From Dehalococcoidia bacterium (GTDB taxonomy: Bacteria; Chloroflexota; Dehalococcoidia; UBA2247; RBG-13-53-26), in NCBI GenBank assembly GCA_016932645.1, contig JAFGCL010000198.1:1-32765 (forward strand): a stretch of DNA of 32,765 nucleotides, in the 5' to 3' direction. The translations under genes and the position numbers were made by a program. Positions within the stretch are counted from its first letter, which is position 1. Each line of letters opens with the position of its first letter. The notes under the pieces were generated by a model. That model was not told where the DNA came from. It did not search any database and worked only from the letters and a program-made list of their open reading frames with translations. This document shows, one piece after another, positions 1 through 11,890 of the stretch.

Positions 1-58
1 CGTTGTACCAGGACGTCGGTATGTCCTTCTCATGCAGGATGAACTTGGTCTGGTCCAT
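1..58 (-). CDS. trpB: Tryptophan synthase beta chain-like (TrpB2-type), N-terminal fragment running off the left edge
   Basis: Minus-strand reading from the ATG at 58 gives MDQTKFILHEKDIPTSWYN, resembling TrpB2 N-termini (..EKDIPxxWYN). SD GGAGGAAGAG lies just upstream, and a Trp T-box precedes it. Confidence 0.75.
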   Translation of the reverse strand, partial: MDQTKFILHEKDIPTSWYN

Positions 59-147
59 GGTGTCTCTTCCTCCTTATCAAATGAGTAGAATCTCTATCTG
101 CTGTGATGACGCGGCCGTCGCCAGGGACGCGTGGCCCTTGAAAAGAC

Positions 148-163
148 TGGACTTCTAAGTCCA
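148..163 (-). terminator. Short perfect hairpin between the T-box and trpB, possible second attenuator/terminator
   Basis: TGGACTTAGAAGTCCA palindrome followed on the minus strand by GTCTTTTC. Confidence 0.35.
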
Positions 164-204
164 TAGCGGTTTGACTTAAGGTCCATTTCTGCGCTTATCA
201 TAAC

Positions 205-478
205 ACGTCCCATAATAGACAAGCCCTCCGTCCCATGAGGGGCGAAGGGCTTTGTTCGCGGTGCCACCCTCTTTGGTTCAACGACTGAACCATCTCACTA
301 ACAGGTACGGGTCTTCCCATACCCTGAACTGAGGTAACGGTGTTCTTCCGGCAAATCCTACTCGGCTGTCACCTTTCGGGTTGCGGCTCCGAGGTCCATT
401 CAGCTTCCGCTCCGGCATCGGTTCGCACCGCCCACCGACTCTCTGTGCCTGGCAGGAAACCTACTAGTCCTGTTCTTG
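205..478 (-). ncRNA. T-box riboswitch leader, Trp specifier
   Basis: The reverse complement has the T-box core AGGGTGGCACCGCGAAC (254..270), the Stem I motif AGAGAGTCGG and GGTGCGAACC. It also has GAA-TGG-ACC with TGG (396..398) as specifier, a Stem III hairpin GGTATGGGAAGACCCGTACC, and a downstream hairpin AAGCCCTTCG..CGGAGGGCTT. Confidence 0.93.
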
Positions 479-507
479 GCCTTTGGTCTATTCAGTTGTG
501 GCAAGGA

Positions 508-1485
508 TTATAGTGGCAGCGAATCGGGCTTGTCAAATGTGTGTGTACTGGACAATGCACTCTCAGGCCCGTCTTCTCCAGGAATCGGGTGTTTCCACCG
601 ATACCAGATCAGGAGGATAGGAATCAGCGCTACCAGTGAGATCATGGCAACACTAGACATGTTATTCAGAAGGTTGTGGTGACTGGTAATCCAGGTGATC
701 TCCTCTGGCAGGACATTGGTGTTACTGCCTATGTTAGGTATCGTCATGGCATCGAACATGCAATGAAGCACCAACGGTGCGAAGAAGGAGAACCTCAAGG
801 TCAGCCAGGCTAAGGACAAACCCAGAACGAAGGTGTCGACTAACCTGGAAGCGCCGTGATTGGGCAGGTGATAGAGACTGAAGGCCAGTGAAGGAAGCAC
901 GAGGTAGCCTGCCTTGGCCCAGAATGAGGCCCTTTCGCTCTTGACCCGCTTCATGAAGATCAGCAGGATGACGAAAGGTATGCCTCTGAAGACGATCTCC
1001 TCCCAGATTGGGTTGTGCCAAAGAGAGAAGATGGCGGCGTTAGCTTTACCGGCCAAGTCCATATCCCCTATGTCCTGGGCCTCTTGCCAGCCGGTGAGGT
1101 AATTGATGATGCCGGCTAGGCCCGTAGCCACCAGAACTGTTATCAAGCCCAGCAACGCCACTTTGCCCAGGTTTCGCTTGCGTGCCAGATAGATGATCCC
1201 GGCGGCATAGGAAATCAGCATGGCTCCCATGGCCAGCCAGACGGGCATACTGGGAGCCACGTGGCCATCGACCCCCGGCCAGAAGAGGAGATTGACGGGA
1301 TTCGATTCCAACATGAAACCGGTATAAACATACTGGCCGATGGTGGCTATCAGAGGGACGATCAGCACCAGAACAAATGGAAGCTGGAGAAGGGGGTTCG
1401 TGAGGATCCCGAGAGCTACCCAATGGCCGTAGCTGTAGAGCCTCTTGACGGTCGTATTCCTGTTAGACACACTGTTCGACATCAT
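508..1485 (-). CDS. CPBP-family intramembrane metalloprotease
   Basis: Multi-pass protein with EEIVFRG, FSLYHLPNH and HCMFDA, the CPBP/Abi motifs EExxxR, FxxxH and HxxxD. The start MMSNSVSN overlaps the upstream gene stop (TGATG). Confidence 0.88.
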   Translation of the reverse strand: MMSNSVSNRNTTVKRLYSYGHWVALGILTNPLLQLPFVLVLIVPLIATIGQYVYTGFMLESNPVNLLFWPGVDGHVAPSMPVWLAMGAMLISYAAGIIYLARKRNLGKVALLGLITVLVATGLAGIINYLTGWQEAQDIGDMDLAGKANAAIFSLWHNPIWEEIVFRGIPFVILLIFMKRVKSERASFWAKAGYLVLPSLAFSLYHLPNHGASRLVDTFVLGLSLAWLTLRFSFFAPLVLHCMFDAMTIPNIGSNTNVLPEEITWITSHHNLLNNMSSVAMISLVALIPILLIWYRWKHPIPGEDGPESALSSTHTFDKPDSLPL

Positions 1486-2453
1486 CAGGTTGTAGAAGCA
1501 AGGCCGCTCAAGGTCGAATTCTGATTCGTGTAGTGGGCCTGCGTGTTGTCCCACAGCTTCCACAATCCCCAGACGGCCAGGATGGCCACAATAGTCAATC
1601 CGCTAAAACACTCGTCCATATCCTTCAGCACCAGGAGTGGGATGAAGAACGCCAGCATGCCGATTACCATGGCGAGCCTATGCCGGTCATCCCAGGCTGT
1701 ACCGTTACCCGACCATCGCATAACGAGCCAGAAAGTGATGCCATCCAGCGCGGCGATAAGGACGAACAGCACCGGCCAGGCTGGCAGCCAGGAGAGGTTC
1801 TCCTCCGGGAGCACAAACAAGGACAAAAAGACCACTGTCATGTTCACGGCAGCGACCACGCCATACCAGAGCGGGCGTGTGCCGGTTCCTGCTCGCGATG
1901 GGAACACCTGTGCCGGGAGCCGCCATGCCACACAGGCTAGACCGGCAATGGTCGCTAGTGCGAGTATGAAGCCGCCGATCGGTGGCATGAAGGGGTGCAG
2001 CCATGACAGGATAGGCGCCCACAGCGCCAGCCCTGCGAAGCAGGCGGCCAGGGCCCGGTTGCTGGCCCAGCGCTCATGCCGCTGCTCAGGATACATGACG
2101 GTGACCAGTACCACGCTGCTGATTATGCTGATCGTCAGGTGGAAATGAAGCAGGACTTCGGTCCAGGTCCAGGTGATGCCTCCCCAGTAAGAGTAATCAG
2201 CCAGAGCGCCTAGTTCAGCCCAGTTCGGGTCCCAGATCGACCGTGCAACGATGGCTTCCTCGTAGATGCCGTACGCTATCCCCAGCAGCACCAGACAGAA
2301 CCAGCCCTTGCCCCAGCGCACCGTCAGTTCCCGGCAGATGATAGCGCCAAAGCCGTAGGGCAGCGCCGTGAGCACGAAGCTCAGAGGATTAACGAACTGG
2401 AACAGTGTCTGGTGCCCCGATACTAACTCGCCAAGTATAGGAGCCATCAACAA
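1485..2453 (-). CDS. Multi-pass membrane protein of unknown function
   Basis: 322-aa ORF rich in hydrophobic segments, co-directional and overlapping the CPBP gene by TGATG. No family recognised. Confidence 0.75.
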   Translation of the reverse strand: MLMAPILGELVSGHQTLFQFVNPLSFVLTALPYGFGAIICRELTVRWGKGWFCLVLLGIAYGIYEEAIVARSIWDPNWAELGALADYSYWGGITWTWTEVLLHFHLTISIISSVVLVTVMYPEQRHERWASNRALAACFAGLALWAPILSWLHPFMPPIGGFILALATIAGLACVAWRLPAQVFPSRAGTGTRPLWYGVVAAVNMTVVFLSLFVLPEENLSWLPAWPVLFVLIAALDGITFWLVMRWSGNGTAWDDRHRLAMVIGMLAFFIPLLVLKDMDECFSGLTIVAILAVWGLWKLWDNTQAHYTNQNSTLSGLASTT

Positions 2454-2496
2454 CAGGGCAACGGCCGGAGGCAGACGTTTCAGAATGGGTAGGTCC

Positions 2497-5445
2497 TCAC
2501 TCGTATCTCAAAGCTTCTGCCGGGTAGACCCTCGACGCTTGGCGGGCCGGCAGGAAGGTGGTAATCAACGAGGCGAGGTAAGCCACCGCCGCAATGAAGG
2601 CTATCCGCGTCCAGGGGACGACGAGGCTGACCCCGGGAGCTTGCTCGGACATGGTGTCCATTAGGCTGAAAGACAGCGCATAGCCCAACAGCACTCCTAG
2701 GCTGATGCCTAGCAAGGCTACGAAGGATGACTCTATGAGGAACGCCAACTGCACCGCCTCGCGCTGGAAGCCGATGGCGCGGAGGGCGCCGATCTGCTTG
2801 CGCCGCTCTACCACCGCTCTGGCGGCGATCACGCCCAGAGCGGCGATACCCACAATAAGCCCTAGCCCCATGAAGCCGAGCAACAGGTTGTTGAGCATCA
2901 TACCGGCTTTGTTGATGTCTCGTACTTCCTCGGCTATCACTACACTATCCATGCCGTTCTGTACTAGGCCTGTCTCTAGTCCCTTTGAGATGGATTTCGC
3001 ATCAGCGCCGTCCTTGATCCGGAACATGTAAGTGGTAGGCACAATAGGCTGCCGGGCCAGGCTGTCCAGACTGGCCTGTGAGGTCATGATTCCTGGCACG
3101 TATGCGGCGATATCCTTAAGCACTCCGATGACGCGCAGTCGCCCGCCAGTCGCCTCTTCCTCAACGTACACCACCGGCAATACCTTGTCCTCCTGCATGA
3201 ACCCGTCAAGAAGCAAGTACGGCGCTGAGGATCCCAGGCTGTAGTTCACCTTCCTGGCGACGAATGAGGAAGACACTACAGCCAACCCCGGTTGGTGGGC
3301 CATGGCCTGCCATACTTCGTCCGCCGAACTGTAACCTTCAGCCATCATGTTGAATCCATACGAGACGCTGTTGGCATAGCCGTCATCTATTCCCTGAACT
3401 GGGACAGTCAAATACTCTGTGTCGGTGCCGGTCTGGCGGAGCTTGAGGGCGATGATGCTGATGGCGCCGACAGCCTCGATGTCGTCGGAGTCAATGCTGC
3501 CGGCATCCTGGATGGCGGCGTTCATATCAGCTACCGGGTTGACGTAGCTGGTGGTGCCCGATATGTCGAATCCTCCACTCAGGCGGCGTGGGTCTGAGTA
3601 CAAGGAGTTCTCGGATGAGTTAATGATAGACATGACTACCAGAGTGAAGATGACCAAACAGAACATAGCCAGCGCGGCGCCGGTGCGGAACCTGTTGGCC
3701 ATCGGGTAGGAGATGGCTGTCTTCAATACAGCACTGAGGCCGCGGACCCGGCCGAAGACTAAAGCGACCGCCTTCAGGATGAGGTCCATGTTGTGTATCG
3801 CCAGAAACGTGGCACCCAAGACCAGCATGATGCCGGCCAGGAAGAACATCTCCATCCCCCGGGTCATGTCTCTGGCGCCCGAAAGCGACGGAGGCAGGAG
3901 CCACCATGCCACGAGTCCAATACCTGCCAGGCTGAAGGCCAGTCGATCAGGCAGCCCGAATCGTCTCGCTAGGAGGCAGACGCCGACGATAGCCAAAGAC
4001 ACGCCCACCATGTAGGCAGTGCCGCTGTCGCTACTGAAGCCGGCGCAGGTGAAGAGAACCCCCAGGGCGATGGCCAGGACGGCCAGCGCCAGTCCCTTCC
4101 AGTCGCGCGCTCGGGAAATCTGTGGCTCAGGGATGTCCTTCATGGCTCTGATTATGTTGAGCTTGCTGACGCGCCAGGCCGAGAAGGCTACCACGGCCAG
4201 AGTGAGCAGTACCCCCAGACAGTAGGCGATTATGAGGCTTCCAGGTCTTGAGTGAAAGGAGAACTGCACGTCAAACTGGCTGAAAGCAGCTGCCATGAGC
4301 CTGACCATGCCCCACCCGATACCCAGCCCCAGTATGCTGCCGATGGCCGAGGCCGCCAGAGCATAGATGGCTCCCTCGTAGGTGAACATGCGGATGACGT
4401 GACCATGCTGCGTGCCCAAGGCGCGGGCCGTGCCCAACTCGGTCTTGCGCTCTGCGGCCAGCATAACGAATGTGAGGAATATCAGCAGAACACCAGCGGC
4501 CACAGAGAACTGCGCCATTATGACGAACACCGACATGAAGGCGTCGCCGGCCTCGGTGGCCACATCCAGAGCTTCCTGCTTCACTGCTTCGGCGGTAAGG
4601 CCGGTTCCCTCTAGGGCGGGTTCCAGTATCGCCATCACCTCATCCGTGTGTGTTGCCCCGTGTATGGCGTTGCCCGTATTGGTTATGGCGATCAAGTTGA
4701 CCTGTTCCGGCCGGCCGAGAAGGCTCTGTGCCTCGGCCAGCGGCACAACCATCGATATCTCGTCCCCGGGGACGCCGTCGCTGTATATGCCGGCGACGGC
4801 GAAGGGGAATGGCTGCCCATCAGTGAAGACACTCACCGTGTCACCCATCCGGACCTCCAGATGCTCTGCTGCTCGAGAACTGAGATAAGCCTGTCCGGCC
4901 TGCAGGTCCGCAACAATGAGTCGCTCACCGCGGCTGTCGACTATCGGGTCGAAGTGCCGCTCCCAGGATTCATCCAGGCCCCAGAGCTCAATGTTAGGCT
5001 CATTTAACTCGGTTGTCGGTGAAATGACCGGCATGCCGGCATTCATTGCCGCGGCGACGCCTTCTACATTCGAGTCATCGCCGATGATCTGGCTCAAGTC
5101 GGCTGCATACTGCTGGTCGAAGTAGCCCTGTGATCCGGCGGCGTCAACAGCTTGGCCATGTATCATGACATCTATCTGGCCCAACTGGTCCGTTGCCATG
5201 TTGCGGATGGAATAAGATACCGTGTCGCCGATGGTGAAGGAGGCGGAGAACAACATGGCTGCCAGCATGAGTCCGAGCAATATCAGCGCGGTCTGAGCAG
5301 GACGGCGCGGCACGTTCCTGGACGCCAGCTTGAACATCACACGATTACGGAGACTACTGATCGTTAGTACCACCACGCACAAGCACATTACGATGGCCAA
5401 TCCTCCGGTAAGAGGCGCGAGAGGCAAGCCGAAAAGCTTGTTCAT
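2497..5445 (-). CDS. ABC transporter permease, FtsX/MacB-like, 982 aa
   Basis: Two FtsX-like modules, e.g. FVMLAAERKTELGTARALGTQHGHVIRMF and VVERRKQIGALRAIGFQREAVQLAFLIESSFVALLG. SD GAGGG lies upstream and an ABC ATPase precedes it. Confidence 0.93.
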   Translation of the reverse strand: MNKLFGLPLAPLTGGLAIVMCLCVVVLTISSLRNRVMFKLASRNVPRRPAQTALILLGLMLAAMLFSASFTIGDTVSYSIRNMATDQLGQIDVMIHGQAVDAAGSQGYFDQQYAADLSQIIGDDSNVEGVAAAMNAGMPVISPTTELNEPNIELWGLDESWERHFDPIVDSRGERLIVADLQAGQAYLSSRAAEHLEVRMGDTVSVFTDGQPFPFAVAGIYSDGVPGDEISMVVPLAEAQSLLGRPEQVNLIAITNTGNAIHGATHTDEVMAILEPALEGTGLTAEAVKQEALDVATEAGDAFMSVFVIMAQFSVAAGVLLIFLTFVMLAAERKTELGTARALGTQHGHVIRMFTYEGAIYALAASAIGSILGLGIGWGMVRLMAAAFSQFDVQFSFHSRPGSLIIAYCLGVLLTLAVVAFSAWRVSKLNIIRAMKDIPEPQISRARDWKGLALAVLAIALGVLFTCAGFSSDSGTAYMVGVSLAIVGVCLLARRFGLPDRLAFSLAGIGLVAWWLLPPSLSGARDMTRGMEMFFLAGIMLVLGATFLAIHNMDLILKAVALVFGRVRGLSAVLKTAISYPMANRFRTGAALAMFCLVIFTLVVMSIINSSENSLYSDPRRLSGGFDISGTTSYVNPVADMNAAIQDAGSIDSDDIEAVGAISIIALKLRQTGTDTEYLTVPVQGIDDGYANSVSYGFNMMAEGYSSADEVWQAMAHQPGLAVVSSSFVARKVNYSLGSSAPYLLLDGFMQEDKVLPVVYVEEEATGGRLRVIGVLKDIAAYVPGIMTSQASLDSLARQPIVPTTYMFRIKDGADAKSISKGLETGLVQNGMDSVVIAEEVRDINKAGMMLNNLLLGFMGLGLIVGIAALGVIAARAVVERRKQIGALRAIGFQREAVQLAFLIESSFVALLGISLGVLLGYALSFSLMDTMSEQAPGVSLVVPWTRIAFIAAVAYLASLITTFLPARQASRVYPAEALRYE

Positions 5446-5484
5446 TTGGAGTCCCTCTCTTTCTGTGAAGAGCCGTTCGCCGTG

Positions 5485-6207
5485 CTAGTGTGCTGCCGGA
5501 ACCGTAGTGCCATTGTGCTGATCGCTGGCTATGAGTCCGTCGCGCATGTGGATGATGCGATCCGCGTCGGCGCCGACATCGGGAGAGTGGGTGACCAGCA
5601 CAAAGGTCTGCCCCTTCTCTTTGTTCAGCTTGCGAAGAACCCGCATGACCTCGGTGGCTGTCTCCGTATCCAGGTTGCCCGTCGGCTCGTCGCCCCACAC
5701 TATGGCTGGCTCGTTCACTAGAGCTCGAGCGATGGCCACCCGCTGCTGCTGACCGCCGGAAAGCTCAGAGGGACGCTTGTTCTCTTGACCAGATAGGCCC
5801 ACCATGAAAAGCGCCCCAAGCGCCTTTTGTCGAGCGACCTTCGGAGACACGTCGGATAGCAGGAGGGGCAGTTCCACATTCTCCGCCACATTCAGAACGG
5901 GCAGCAGGTTGAACGATTGAAAGATGAACCCCATGCTCTGGGCCCGGAAATGAGTGCGCTGCCGCTCCGACATCTGGGTAATATGATTGCCATCGACAAT
6001 CACCTCCCCCTGATTGATATCATCCAACCCGGAGAGACAGTTGAGAAGAGTAGTCTTGCCACAGCCACTGGGTCCCATGATGGCTACCATCTCTCCCTTC
6101 TTTATGCTGAGATCCACACCCCGGAGCGCCTGGACTTTGACTGCACCGGTATCGTAGGTCTTGTGTACGCCTTTCACCTCGATTATGTGGCCATTTTGTC
6201 TCACCAT
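5485..6207 (-). CDS. ABC transporter ATP-binding protein (LolD/MacB-type)
   Basis: Walker [10 protein letters not shown], signature [15 protein letters not shown], Walker [11 protein letters not shown]-loop VTHS. ATG at 6207 has SD GGAG. Confidence 0.95.
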
Positions 6208-6291
6208 TTCTTGTTCTCCACCATCATGTCTGTAATGCAACATGGCTGCGTACTCCTCATTCGTGGTCAGACGGTCAAGCCTTCTGCCTGC

Positions 6292-7236
6292 CTACCTAAT
6301 GATCACGTCCCCGTTGGAAGTCTCGATGTGGAGGTCTGCTGCTTCTCCAGTACCGATTGTCCCTACGAGGTGGTCTGTTTCGGTCTTCGTGGCCAATATC
6401 GGCATCTCACAGTCAACCTCGCCAAAGCTGGTGGAAGCATCGAGATTGAGACTGTGCGTCCCTGTCAACTCCACTACAATATCCCCATTGGTACTCACCA
6501 GCCGATTGCTGCCAGAGGGCGTCATCTTACCGCTGAAGGACACGTTGCCATTGCTCGTTTTGATGTTGAATTCTCCTTTGGCTTCCTGCACGGTCACGTT
6601 GCCGTTGGAAGTCCTAACGAAGGTGCTGCCATCGAGAGTATCGATCTCAACCTCGCCATTGCTGGTGGTGGCTTCAAAATGTCCCTGGACTTGCTCGAGT
6701 ACTATGTCCCCGTTTGAAGTATCGAGAGTGCCACCGCGGGTTGTCCCCTGTACTTCGATCTTGCCGTCACTTGTCTTGAGTCGCAGAGCTGTATTTGCTG
6801 GCACCGTCACGTAAATGTTGGCCTCGGTATTGCCGGCAGGGAACCACCACTTCCCCTTGTTCTCGGCCGTGACGATGACTTCATCGCCGTTAGCACTCTG
6901 AGTGGCTTCGTACTCAATACGGCGGATATCTCTCAGTTCGGCCCGCACTACGACAACGTTGTCAGATCCGGCGCAGACTTCGATCCGCCCGTTAAAAGAG
7001 GTGACGTCGAGGGTGATGGGGGCACTGACGGTGAAGTTATCGGTCTCGGTACTCACGGCTGACTGCGTCGTGCATGCGGAAGACGCTAGTGCCATGACCC
7101 CAACCAGAAAGACGAGAGTGACGATAAGCAGAATGGAGATGGGACTCAAAGGCGGCCTTATGCGATGAACCCAGGGTTTCTGGTCTTTCGTGCCTCTATC
7201 ATCTTGATGCTGATGATGAGTGATTGACTTCCTCAT
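6292..7236 (-). CDS. DUF4097-family (YvlB/LiaG-like) beta-strand repeat protein with N-terminal signal/TM segment
   Basis: Repeated TSNG[D/E/N]V motifs (TSNGDIVLEQV, TSNGEVEIDTL, TSNGNVTVQEA, TSNGNVSFSG, TSNGDVIIR). N-terminal TM segment. ATG at 7236 has SD GAGGAGG. Confidence 0.85.
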   Translation of the reverse strand: MRKSITHHQHQDDRGTKDQKPWVHRIRPPLSPISILLIVTLVFLVGVMALASSACTTQSAVSTETDNFTVSAPITLDVTSFNGRIEVCAGSDNVVVVRAELRDIRRIEYEATQSANGDEVIVTAENKGKWWFPAGNTEANIYVTVPANTALRLKTSDGKIEVQGTTRGGTLDTSNGDIVLEQVQGHFEATTSNGEVEIDTLDGSTFVRTSNGNVTVQEAKGEFNIKTSNGNVSFSGKMTPSGSNRLVSTNGDIVVELTGTHSLNLDASTSFGEVDCEMPILATKTETDHLVGTIGTGEAADLHIETSNGDVIIR

Positions 7237-7288
7237 GTACGTCCTCCTCTTTGGTACCGGGCATGTAGCTTGACGGCTCCGGTTCAAC

Positions 7289-8188
7289 TTAATCCTTCTT
7301 CGACACCAGCATGAACTTGGCGAACGCGCCATGTCCCCGCCCCACCAGTTTGGCGAGGTGCATAGTAGCCGGGAGCAAAAGGACACCAAGCACGAAGAAG
7401 AAGGGTATGGACCAGGTGGTGGCCAGGTATTCGGTGTCTCCCAGAATGATGTAGGCCGGCATGTCAAGAATCCCTACCGTAATGGGCATGGCGATCAAGT
7501 AGACTGCGAGACCGATGAGAACGACGAACACGGTGAAATATGCAATGCCGAGACCTAGCATCAGGATGCAATATGCCAGCGCTGTCCAAGTGATCCTTTG
7601 TGTGAACAGGTTCTTAATTCTCTTCCAGAATCCGGTTCTGTCATCGGAGAACATTCGCCGGCGGGGCATGCGCACTCCAAGCAAGGCCTCAACCAACCGG
7701 CCTTCGATGAAGGCAATGCCGCGAATCGACAGTAGGAAGAGGACGGCCAGCGGCAGTCCGATGATGAGCACCAACAGCCCGAGCGATAGCGAGATGCCGA
7801 CGACTGCCCAGGTGAAGTAGGCGATGCCGATGGCTAGAGAGAGAAAGAGGTAGAGCATGGCTCCCCACGCCCTCGGATCGGCGAATACCCCGAAGAAGCG
7901 GTAGAAGATGGATCGCTGACCCTTGTATGCGGACCGGCCCAAGCTGGCAGGAAGCCGGGCTTCCATTTGCCTGTAGGCCGCCGCGATCTCTTGAGGTGAT
8001 CCGTACTTCTCGATGATCGGTGGGATGGCCTCTGCTTCCGAAATATCGGGTCTGCCGTTGATGGCTTGGGCCAGCGCGGTCCGGAGGTACTCTTCAGCAT
8101 CGGCGAGGGCATCTTGGATCACAGCGGCATCGCTCCCAGCTAGTTCCTTCCTGAGCAGGATCAAATACTCGTCAACGCTCTTCACCAT
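7289..8188 (-). CDS. HAAS-domain membrane protein with sensor-like/permease domain
   Basis: N-terminal MVKSVDEYLILLRKELAG...IPPIIEKYGSPQEIAAAYR resembles HAAS (DUF1700-like), followed by several TM segments. Overlaps the PadR gene by 17 bp. Confidence 0.75.
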   Translation of the reverse strand: MVKSVDEYLILLRKELAGSDAAVIQDALADAEEYLRTALAQAINGRPDISEAEAIPPIIEKYGSPQEIAAAYRQMEARLPASLGRSAYKGQRSIFYRFFGVFADPRAWGAMLYLFLSLAIGIAYFTWAVVGISLSLGLLVLIIGLPLAVLFLLSIRGIAFIEGRLVEALLGVRMPRRRMFSDDRTGFWKRIKNLFTQRITWTALAYCILMLGLGIAYFTVFVVLIGLAVYLIAMPITVGILDMPAYIILGDTEYLATTWSIPFFFVLGVLLLPATMHLAKLVGRGHGAFAKFMLVSKKD

Positions 8189-8570
8189 TGCCCTCTCCTT
8201 TCATCACTGTGTCCACGAAGCTCCTCATCTGATCCCACATCTCTCGCCAGCGCGCTAGGGTGTTGTGGCCCGACTCCGTGATCCGGTAGTAGCGCCGGGG
8301 GGGGCCAGAGACTGAAGGTTCGACTCGGCTCTCCAGGAGCCCGCTGCTCTCCAGCGACCGAAGGACCGGATAGAGTGCCCCCTGCTTCAGCACCGCTGCC
8401 TCATCCGCTTGTCCGTCGATGACCTTGGCGATCTGGTAGCCATACATCGGCTCAGCCGCCTTGTCCAGGATGGTCAGGAGGACTAGTGCCGCGACACCGG
8501 AGACAAGCTCCTTCTGAAACTTCTTGTCAGCCGACTCTGTCTCGTCAACGTTCTTGTTCTTTCCCCACAT
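8172..8570 (-). CDS. PadR-family transcriptional regulator
   Basis: LVLLTILDKAAEPMYGYQIAKVID...LKQGALYPVLRSLESSGLLES...RRYYRITESG is a PadR winged helix. Preferred ATG at 8570 with GAGGT upstream. Confidence 0.92.
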   Translation of the reverse strand: MWGKNKNVDETESADKKFQKELVSGVAALVLLTILDKAAEPMYGYQIAKVIDGQADEAAVLKQGALYPVLRSLESSGLLESRVEPSVSGPPRRYYRITESGHNTLARWREMWDQMRSFVDTVMKGEGNGEER

Positions 8571-8719
8571 ACTCAGTGACCTCGATTTCGTTGGCAGTCC
8601 ATTGATTGGCAATGATCCCGCGTCTCGGTATTATTAGACTGCTACTAGTATACACTGCATAATACTGACAGATGCATACTACCATGGCAAAACGAAGTTG
8701 TCAAGCGGGTGACGTTGCG

Positions 8720-9193
8720 ATGAGCCATGCACACCACTCCAGTTCTGATGATACAATGGCGGCGTTGATGTCGCGGCGTCTTGCCATGGATGAGCGTCAC
8801 GTAGTCACCTGCTTCCTGGAACACGATGGCCAGGTCATGATCCTGCGCCGGAGTGAACGCGTGGGCACGTACCGGGGCAAGTGGGCGGGCGTCAGTGGCT
8901 ACATCGAGGAAGGGATCAGTGCTTCCGAGCAGGCGTGGACCGAGATCAAGGAAGAGGCGGGCCTGAGTGGAGAAGATGCTGAAATGGTGCAGGAAGGCCA
9001 GCTTCTGGAAGTGGTCGACGCTGAATTAGGAAGGAAGTGGATCGTCCATCCCTTCCGGTTCAAGGTGCTGAAACCGGAGAAGATCAAGATCGACTGGGAG
9101 CACACCGAGGCGAAGTGGATCTCCCCGGAGGACATTAGCCAGCATGAGACTGTCCCCAACCTGCTGGAGGCCTGGCAGCGTTTGTCTTCATAG
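8720..9193 (+). CDS. NUDIX hydrolase
   Basis: Nudix-like box GYIEEGISASEQAWTEIKEEAGL with preceding VVTCFLEHDGQVMILRRSE. Start ambiguous (8672 or 8720). Confidence 0.85.
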   Translation: MSHAHHSSSDDTMAALMSRRLAMDERHVVTCFLEHDGQVMILRRSERVGTYRGKWAGVSGYIEEGISASEQAWTEIKEEAGLSGEDAEMVQEGQLLEVVDAELGRKWIVHPFRFKVLKPEKIKIDWEHTEAKWISPEDISQHETVPNLLEAWQRLSS

Positions 9194-9238
9194 TCCTTGC
9201 TCTCGAACGGCCTTTTCAATATACTTTTCTCCACTACT

Positions 9239-11890
9239 ATGACTGGCGACGAACTCCGGAAGGCGTTTCTCACTTTCTTTGAGAGCAAGGGGCACACCGT
9301 TGTCCCGAGTTCCTCCCTGATCCCCCAGGGCGATCCGACGCTCCTGCTGACCACGGCTGGCATGGTGCAGATGAAGCCCTACTTCCTGGGCCTTGCCGTG
9401 CCGTCCAACACCAAGTTGACCTCCTGCCAGAAGTGCTTCCGAACGACGGATGCCGATTCGGTGGGCGACAACCGACACCTGACCTTCTTTGAGATGCTGG
9501 GCAACTTCAGCGTGGGTGACTACTTCAAGAAAGAGGCCATTGAGTGGGGTTGGGAGTTTGTCACCGAGTGGCTGAAGTTTCCCCACGACCGCCTCTGGAT
9601 TACTATCTTCCTGGATGATGACGAGGCAATGGTGCACTGGCGGCGCATGGGCGTGCCGACCGAGCGCATAGTGAGACTGGGCGAGAAGCAGAACTTCTGG
9701 GGGCCGGCAGGCGACTCCGGCCCATGCGGCCCGTGCAGCGAGATCCACTACGACTTCGGCCCTGAGTTCGGTTGCGGCCAGTCAGGCTGCAGCCCCGAGT
9801 GCGAGTGCGGGCGCTTCTCTGAGATATGGAACCTGGTGTTCATGCAGTTCAACCAGGATGTGCAGGGACAGCGCACCCCTCTGCCCAAGCCCAACATAGA
9901 CACGGGCATGGGTTTGGAGCGCGTTGCAGCCATCATGCAGGAGAAGAGGACGGTCTACGAGACCGACATCTTCGCACCGCTGGTGGCCAAAGTGGCCGGC
10001 ATGACTGGGAAGCACTTCGGCAAGGACGAGGGCGTGGATCGGTCGATTAGAGTGATCGCGGAGCATGCCCGTGGCATCACGTTCTTGATCGCCGATGGAG
10101 TGGTGCCGGGCAATGAGGGCCGAGGCTATGTGCTAAGGCGGTTGCTGCGACGCACGGCGCTGTTCGGGAGGAAGCTGGGGCTGGAGGAGCCGTTCATCGG
10201 AGTTTTGGCGGATTTTGTGGTGGAGAGAATGGGGCACGTTTACCCCGAACTGCGGCAGAACCAGGAGATGGTGCGCAGCATCGTCAACCTTGAGGAAAAG
10301 AGGTTTGGCGAGGCTCTCAACAGCGGCTTGAATGCGCTGGACAAGGTCATGGAGGCGGCGGGATCTGACAAGAGGATACGCGGCGAGGATGCTTTCATGC
10401 TGTACGACACGTACGGTTTTCCTAAGGAGTTGACTGTTGAGGTGGCCTCCGAGAGGGGCTTCGCGGTTGATGTGGACGGTTTCGAGCGTGAGATGGAGCG
10501 GCAGCGTGAGCGGGCGAGGGCTGCCCACAAGTTCGGTGGCGGTGACAAGACCGAATTGAAGGCCTACGAACAACTGGGCATCACGGCATCCGGGTTCGTG
10601 GGGTATGAAACTTGTTGCCACGAATCGGTGGTGATGGGACTGATTGCTGGCGGGAAGCCGGTGGATTCCGTGTCGGAGGGTGATGAGGTGGAGGTGGTCT
10701 TGAAGGACTCGCCGTTCTATGGGGAGATGGGTGGCCAGGTGGGCGATACCGGGGAGATACGCAGCGCGCAGGGGAGGATCAGCGTGCGCCAGACGATCAG
10801 GCCTCTGCCGGATCTGATCGTTCATCAAGGCAAGGTGGTTCAGGGTCACATTGCTGTGAGCGACAGCGTAGTGGCCGAGGTGGACATCAAGCGGCGCCTG
10901 GACATTGCGCGCAATCACACGGCGACGCACCTGCTGCAATCGGCGTTGAGAGCGGTGCTGGGACAGCATGTCCGCCAGTCTGGGTCCTTGGTGACTCCGG
11001 ACCGATTCAGGTTCGACTTCAATCATCTGGAAGCGGTAGGGAAACAGCGTCTGCTGGAAGTACAGCAACTGGTCAATGAGAAGATCAGAGAGAACCTGCC
11101 TGTTATGGCGAGCGTGACCTCGTACAAGGAAGCAGTGGCAAGGGGGGCGACGGCGCTGTTCGGCGAGAAGTACGGCGATGAGGTACGCGTGCTGCAGGTG
11201 GGCGATCCGCCTTTCAGCGTGGAGCTCTGCGGCGGGACTCATGTTCATTCGACCGGCGAAATCGGCCTGCTGCACATCGTATCTGAGGAAAGTGTCGGCA
11301 GCGGACTGCGGCGGATAGAGGCGATGACAGGCAGGGCCGCGGAACGTCTGGTTGAGGAGCGCCTGTCGGAGCTGGATTCGCTGGCGGCGCAGCTTCAGAC
11401 GATGCCAGAGAGAGTCCAGGCCAAGGTCGCTTCCATGGCGGATGAGTTGGAACGGGAACGGAAGCGGGCCCTGGCTGTTGAACGAGAGACGGCGAGAAGG
11501 GCGGCTGGTTCGCTATTATCGGAGGCTCGTGACGTGAACGGAATACAAGTGATATCGACAAAAGTGACGGCGACCAGCGCAGACGCCATGCGTGAGATGG
11601 GAGACCGGCTCAAGGAAGAGCTCAAGAGCGGTGTAATAGTCTTGGGCGGCGTTTGTGACGGGAAGCCCAGCCTGCTGGCGATGGTGACCCCGGATCTAGT
11701 AGCGAAGGGCTTCAACGCGGGTCAGGTGGTGAAGGAGTTGGCCAAGGTTGTGGGTGGTGGAGGTGGGGGAAGGGCCGAGTTGGGTCAGGGCAGTGGCAAA
11801 GATGCAGGCAAGCTGGACGAAGCCTTGAAGCAGGTTGATAGGTTGGTTGAAGTACACTACGACCGAGCGTCGGGCACCTGGAAGAAGTAG
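9239..11890 (+). CDS. alaS: Alanyl-tRNA synthetase
   Basis: FFESKGHTVVPSSSLIP, GPCGPCSEIHYD, HTATHLLQSALRAVLG, SVELCGGTHV and a C-Ala tail. ATG at 9239. Confidence 0.98.
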   Translation: MTGDELRKAFLTFFESKGHTVVPSSSLIPQGDPTLLLTTAGMVQMKPYFLGLAVPSNTKLTSCQKCFRTTDADSVGDNRHLTFFEMLGNFSVGDYFKKEAIEWGWEFVTEWLKFPHDRLWITIFLDDDEAMVHWRRMGVPTERIVRLGEKQNFWGPAGDSGPCGPCSEIHYDFGPEFGCGQSGCSPECECGRFSEIWNLVFMQFNQDVQGQRTPLPKPNIDTGMGLERVAAIMQEKRTVYETDIFAPLVAKVAGMTGKHFGKDEGVDRSIRVIAEHARGITFLIADGVVPGNEGRGYVLRRLLRRTALFGRKLGLEEPFIGVLADFVVERMGHVYPELRQNQEMVRSIVNLEEKRFGEALNSGLNALDKVMEAAGSDKRIRGEDAFMLYDTYGFPKELTVEVASERGFAVDVDGFEREMERQRERARAAHKFGGGDKTELKAYEQLGITASGFVGYETCCHESVVMGLIAGGKPVDSVSEGDEVEVVLKDSPFYGEMGGQVGDTGEIRSAQGRISVRQTIRPLPDLIVHQGKVVQGHIAVSDSVVAEVDIKRRLDIARNHTATHLLQSALRAVLGQHVRQSGSLVTPDRFRFDFNHLEAVGKQRLLEVQQLVNEKIRENLPVMASVTSYKEAVARGATALFGEKYGDEVRVLQVGDPPFSVELCGGTHVHSTGEIGLLHIVSEESVGSGLRRIEAMTGRAAERLVEERLSELDSLAAQLQTMPERVQAKVASMADELERERKRALAVERETARRAAGSLLSEARDVNGIQVISTKVTATSADAMREMGDRLKEELKSGVIVLGGVCDGKPSLLAMVTPDLVAKGFNAGQVVKELAKVVGGGGGGRAELGQGSGKDAGKLDEALKQVDRLVEVHYDRASGTWKK

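Follow-up and report, generated by a model that had tools for sequence, protein, structure and literature searches.

A PadR-HAAS-DUF4097 operon with lineage-specific envelope genes in a Dehalococcoidia genome, and a predicted operator common to PadR-HAAS promoters

Do seven adjoining genes of a Dehalococcoidia contig form one conserved system, or has a known regulatory unit acquired further genes in a single lineage? We addressed this question in a contig stretch of 32,765 nucleotides (hereafter the window), in which genes for a PadR repressor, a HAAS membrane protein, a DUF4097 protein, an ABC ATPase and its permease, an unknown membrane protein (UMP) and a CPBP protease follow each other in this order, all on the minus strand, between positions 508 and 8570. 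The targets of HAAS-PadR regulation are little known, and this operon is a case of a transporter, a protease and UMP apparently under such control. We found that the seven-gene set, judged by its distribution among relatives, is a local, lineage-specific assembly on a known PadR-HAAS-DUF4097 unit. The most useful new result is a predicted operator common to PadR-HAAS promoters, through which HAAS-PadR target genes become findable from sequence.

Gene content and domain architecture

Gene calls and profile matches bore out the seven co-directional genes, the short gaps and overlaps and the family names given in the initial annotation. The first gene (8172..8570, minus strand) encodes a PadR-family repressor of 132 aa (PF03551, 3e-20, 72 bits; cut-off 27), and the context of its ATG is conserved as GAGGTCA(C/G)TGAG(C/T)ATGTGGGG. 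This stand-alone PadR gene adjoins the HAAS gene (7289..8188, minus strand), as in HAAS-PadR systems. The 299-aa HAAS protein combines cytoplasmic helices with a multi-pass Sensor domain (PF13796, 1.5e-33, 117 bits); its match to the HAAS profile PF22564 was marginal (6e-6, 26.9 bits, just below the cut-off of 27), and its GxP motif corresponds to G63-S64-P65, with G and P invariant across 8 orthologs.

The third gene (6292..7236, minus strand) encodes a membrane-anchored DUF4097 protein of the Toastrack/LiaG-like type (314 aa; PF13349, 9e-20, 72 bits). It was assigned to the DUF4097 superfamily only, as the LiaG model NF049997 scored 79.7 bits (2e-22) against a cut-off of 285. Hydropathy analysis detected a single N-terminal hydrophobic segment (residues 33-51) preceded by a basic stretch, and this anchor suggests that the protein faces outside.

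The ABC transporter pair comprises an ATPase of the LolD/MacB type (252 aa; 5485..6243, minus strand; PF00005, 7e-35, 121 bits), with an intact Walker motif, and a duplicated FtsX/MacB_PCD permease (982 aa; 2497..5445, minus strand) with two FtsX and two MacB_PCD stretches, whose halves resemble each other (blastp, 4e-5). The intact ATPase motifs together with the FtsX and MacB_PCD domains place the pair in the MacB/FtsX ABC superfamily, while its scores stayed below the cut-offs of the LolCDE/MacB equivalog models (LolD, 241.5 vs 307.75; MacB, 211 vs 966; lolCE, 80.7 vs 362). In a tree of 20 permeases, that of the window grouped with those of genomes G101 and G175 with good support, and five same-family permeases (G052, G149, G115, G192, and G203) formed a separate clade. 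We also observed a protein of about 105 aa between an ABC ATPase and a duplicated permease in four other loci (L055, 7583-7897; L058, 8159-8473; L062, 7404-7718; L054, 9231-9602); it carries an ABM domain where tested and is absent from the window.

UMP is a multi-pass membrane protein of 322 aa (1485..2453, minus strand) with no match in Pfam or NCBIfam; its start codon is uncertain, being either TTG at 2453 or a non-standard codon slightly upstream. A search that covered Chloroflexota recovered relatives in 31 of 400 genomes of that phylum, adjoining unrelated genes, and defined a family of membrane proteins of about 300 residues, in which E66 is invariant and the R41-E42 pair and H105 are nearly so. 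The AlphaFold2 model was confident (pLDDT 88.8), an earlier one from 5 sequences being too poor (pLDDT 45.5) and set aside. A hidden CPBP protein or a known fold was rejected: 30 members lacked Pfam matches beyond single weak ones, and a fold comparison of the model with the PDB returned nothing at E<=0.001.

The last gene (508..1485, minus strand) encodes a CPBP/Rce1-like intramembrane protease (PF02517, 1e-11, 45 bits; cut-off 22) with the glutamic protease motifs EEIVFR at 162 (EExxxR), FSLYH at 202 (FxxxH) and HCMFD at 241 (HxxxN/D).

Operon structure and flanking genes

The PadR and HAAS genes overlap by 17 nt and a TGATG holds both the stop of UMP and the start of CPBP, both as initially described, and the gaps in the rest of the run, from HAAS to UMP, measure 52, 48, 39 and 43 nt. 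A consensus scan of positions 1-9300 returned two minus-strand promoters with at least 10/12 matches (8704-8676 and 536-507), and none between 600 and 8600. Given the scan result together with the overlaps and short gaps, a single transcription unit from PadR through CPBP is the simplest reading, and it is plausible that the seven genes are all expressed from one promoter under repression.

The site at 536-507 is a perfect TTGACA-18-TATAAT promoter that lies inside the 3' end of the CPBP gene. It reads into a T-box leader (235-486, minus strand; RF00230, 108 bits) and the gene behind it (58..1, minus strand), whose initial residues are MDQTKFILHEKDIPTSWYN and which is TrpB-like by appearance. 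On the other side, the longest reading of a divergent NUDIX gene (8672-8720, plus strand) begins within the -10 region of the operon. Its true start is probably 8720, and the NUDIX gene and the seven-gene operon may be under common control.

Promoter and predicted PadR operator

The operon promoter (8676..8704, minus strand) is of the sigma-70 type, TTGACA-17-TAGTAT, with 10/12 consensus matches and a TG before the second hexamer. Across four members of the family (the window and genomes G192, G203 and G052) both of its boxes, -35 and -10, are conserved, and CTTGACAA and CATGGTA.TAT are invariant. Just 3' of the -10 box we identified a 9-1-9 dyad without strand assignment, TATTATGCAGTGTATACTA (8646..8664), as the predicted PadR operator; it perfectly matches the pattern TAnTATnnAnTnnATAnTA. 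An extra half-site, TAGTATGCA (8673-8681), overlaps the -10 box, so that the half-site is repeated at 17 nt spacing. The same-genus genome G203 has the operator in a degraded form only.

The pattern TAnTATnnAnTnnATAnTA is present at PadR-HAAS promoters of several phyla. We scored 72 such promoters and found 16 perfect copies and 33 with one mismatch, for which shuffles expect 0 and 0.3, respectively; the pattern was derived from the same promoters as those scored, so its location and uniqueness are the stronger tests. In 1.12 Mb of related loci, all 15 perfect copies were located at PadR promoters (15/15) and none elsewhere, while a control pattern gave 0. In the 2.43 Mb genome of the window there is one perfect copy, that at 8646-8664. 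PadR dimers repress by binding dyads of this kind, and from the predicted operator at its own promoter, the only perfect genomic copy, we infer that PadR represses its own operon.

Two perfect copies were associated with other operons. In G039, a perfect operator and a one-mismatch copy stand in tandem, 17 nt apart, over the promoter of an operon that encodes the ATPase and two permeases of an ABC-2 exporter (L184 2483-2518; G039:C9:102982-103017). This exporter operon is a likely trans target; it is a single case, and the exporter class differs from that of the window's permease. In G062, a DnaJ-MerR-ClpB operon has a perfect operator over its promoter (L185 about 2234; G062:C6:15733-15751), again a single case, which could be due to chance. 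A scan for a wider regulon with one mismatch was at background in AT-rich genomes, where control counts were equally high, so perfect or tandem sites alone were used.

Conservation of the locus

HAAS relatives were detected in 28 of 294 genomes of the class, with strong matches (at least 49% identity) in eight, the window counted. Across 80 named loci from Chloroflexota, Fermentibacteria/Aegiribacteria, Krumholzibacteriota, Gammaproteobacteria and others, PadR stands directly upstream of HAAS in 70 and most runs hold no further gene, although some distant neighbours could be missed with single-sequence searches and short contigs. By this distribution, PadR-HAAS is an old pair. The order PadR-HAAS-DUF4097 was found in all four family loci (the window, G052, G192 and G203), and DUF4097 as third gene is restricted to this Dehalococcoidia family. 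In four other loci (L077, L085, L105 and L114), HAAS is followed by a DUF2807 protein, one of which also weakly matches DUF4097; we take DUF2807 to be a surface domain related to DUF4097.

The window's PadR-HAAS genes (7289-8570; compared with L038 and L039) are nearer to those of G052, which belongs to another genus, than to those of the same-genus G192, and AlaS shows the opposite. Identity to the window HAAS is 86% in G052 and 76% in G192, and identity to the window AlaS is 72-76% and 86-87%, respectively. We read this discordance as a hint of horizontal transfer, in which PadR and HAAS may have moved together.

The prevalence of PadR-HAAS alone would also fit a narrower regulatory role, in which PadR controls only HAAS and DUF4097, as in the Listeria lltR operon, and the four genes that follow (the ABC pair, UMP and CPBP) lie alongside under weak promoters of their own, without a common function. 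In Listeria, a derepressed mutant lost its phenotype once the HAAS-like gene lmo0600 was deleted (PMC6624303). We consider this separation of the genes unlikely in the window, where it has to contend with the short gaps, the TGATG overlap and an interval from 600 to 8600 without a minus-strand promoter of at least 10/12.

The genes behind DUF4097 have a much narrower distribution. Apart from the window, G203 is the sole genome with CPBP behind DUF4097; there was no further CPBP match at E<=1e-6, i.e. CPBP is found in 2 of 294 class genomes, and one same-family genome stops at PadR-HAAS-DUF4097. In G203 the order is PadR-HAAS-DUF4097-CPBP, with neither the ABC pair nor UMP in between: its DNA is similar to that of the window as far as the end of DUF4097 (about 6299 in the window) and again from near the CPBP start (about 1400), and the part that G203 lacks holds the genes for the ABC ATPase, its permease and UMP. 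An ABC pair or UMP occurred within the HAAS gene run in none of the 80 related loci (0/80), and the full seven-gene arrangement was in no relative examined, so we regard it as a patchwork on a known design and not as a conserved new system. The proposal in the initial annotation that the full combination looks like one sensing and detoxification system was not supported, as a conserved system, by G203 and the 80 loci; its suggested neighbourhood check beyond PadR-HAAS came out positive for DUF4097, narrowly so for CPBP, and negative for the ABC genes and UMP. A seven-gene module conserved across genomes was likewise rejected, since ABC-pair relatives (38-53% identity), which are common in the class, and UMP relatives are found beside unrelated genes.

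The same distribution bears on the idea that the seven genes act jointly as a module dedicated to resistance against antimicrobial peptides or bacteriocins, HAAS and DUF4097 sensing the compound, the ABC transporter removing it and CPBP degrading it or conferring immunity. The PadR-controlled ABC exporters LmrR-LmrCD and LftR-LieAB (PMC6624303), the PadR-HAAS-type operator at the G039 exporter promoter, the intact CPBP motifs and the translational coupling of UMP and CPBP would agree with such a module. We nevertheless judge it quite unlikely, as of the genomes examined the window genome alone has the combination, the operon of a same-genus genome lacks the transporter and UMP, CPBP is so rare in the class, and a general reading of the window brought up no precursor-peptide gene. 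We advise against annotating the seven-gene set as a conserved resistance module.

Most likely, the ABC transporter and UMP were inserted later between DUF4097 and CPBP; alternatively, the block may have been lost in G203. No foreign base composition was seen in the ABC-UMP block, whose GC3 (0.66-0.74) is like that of its neighbours. That the block is an assembly artefact is very improbable: the source genome is a draft, probably metagenome-assembled (238 contigs, 72.8% complete), and the order is found in no second genome, but the block ends coincide with gene borders, the UMP and CPBP genes overlap in TGATG, and GC3 agrees with the neighbouring genes.

Proposed function of the operon

We consider it probable, though well short of certain, that the locus is a self-repressed, one-component membrane-stress switch formed by PadR and HAAS, with lineage-specific envelope cargo. 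The genes, their common promoter, the operator motif, the patchy conservation and the separate clade of the permease can be read from the sequences; that PadR represses, that HAAS senses, that membrane stress induces the operon and what the effectors do, we infer. A PadR dimer bound to the dyad at 8646-8664, near the -10 box, would keep the whole minus-strand operon off, its own gene included. HAAS would be made together with PadR by overlapping translation, and a membrane perturbation or a ligand would change its shape and thereby relieve repression by PadR. The derepressed operon would then supply the DUF4097 surface protein, the LolCDE/MacB-type ABC transporter, UMP and the intramembrane protease; the transporter might act on the membrane or expel a lipophilic compound, and the products together would protect or remodel the envelope. 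As PadR-HAAS lacks cargo of this kind in most lineages, the effectors may be passengers.

We also put forward, tentatively, a wider reading of this switch, in which PadR-HAAS would be a widespread device with TAnTATnnAnTnnATAnTA as its operator code, recruiting different envelope effectors in two ways: in cis, where genes are captured behind DUF4097 as in the window, and in trans, where other promoters acquire the operator, as at the ABC-2 exporter of G039 and perhaps the DnaJ-MerR-ClpB operon of G062; UMP would then be a membrane protein of a new class that takes part in the response.

Comparison with known systems

The window resembles the ADOP systems of Acidobacteria (TIGR03434) with their PadR regulators (TIGR03433) in combining PadR with a duplicated MacB_PCD/FtsX permease. 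Its matches to these families were weak and well below the cut-offs (PadR, 67 bits vs 101.8; permease, 65 bits vs 622), and unlike in ADOP, a protein of its own carries HAAS and a dedicated ATPase accompanies the permease. An ABC transporter under a PadR repressor is likewise found in LmrR-LmrCD and LftR-LieAB, but to our knowledge neither has a HAAS partner. PadR proteins often control ABC exporters such as these (PMC6624303), and LmrR binds inverted repeats of the ATGT/ACAT type (PMC3506622), which TAnTATnnAnTnnATAnTA does not resemble.

The association of PadR-HAAS and DUF4097 with envelope-stress loci, already pointed out in the initial annotation, agrees with a known unit of the membrane-stress type (PMC6624303, PMC11237479). 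The Listeria monocytogenes lltR operon (lmo0599-lmo0600-lmo0601) has the same order of PadR, DUF1700/HAAS-type membrane protein and DUF4097 exoprotein and is auto-repressed about 100-fold (PMC6624303); the likeness of lmo0600 is taken at the level of its DUF1700/HAAS type. It consists of three genes, without the ABC pair, UMP or CPBP of the window.

According to a published proposal, HAAS-PadR takes the place of a two-component system as a switch for membrane stress, with HAAS relaying a membrane signal to PadR (PMC11237479). The systems described there share with the window a GxP HAAS with a stand-alone PadR, a fused multi-pass membrane domain and a Toastrack partner. They differ in the placement of Toastrack, which that proposal takes to be intracellular, whereas the N-terminal anchor in the window suggests the outside. 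The passages of PMC11237479 that were compared mention neither an ABC pair together with UMP and CPBP nor an operator sequence, and the window has both, the latter as a predicted site.
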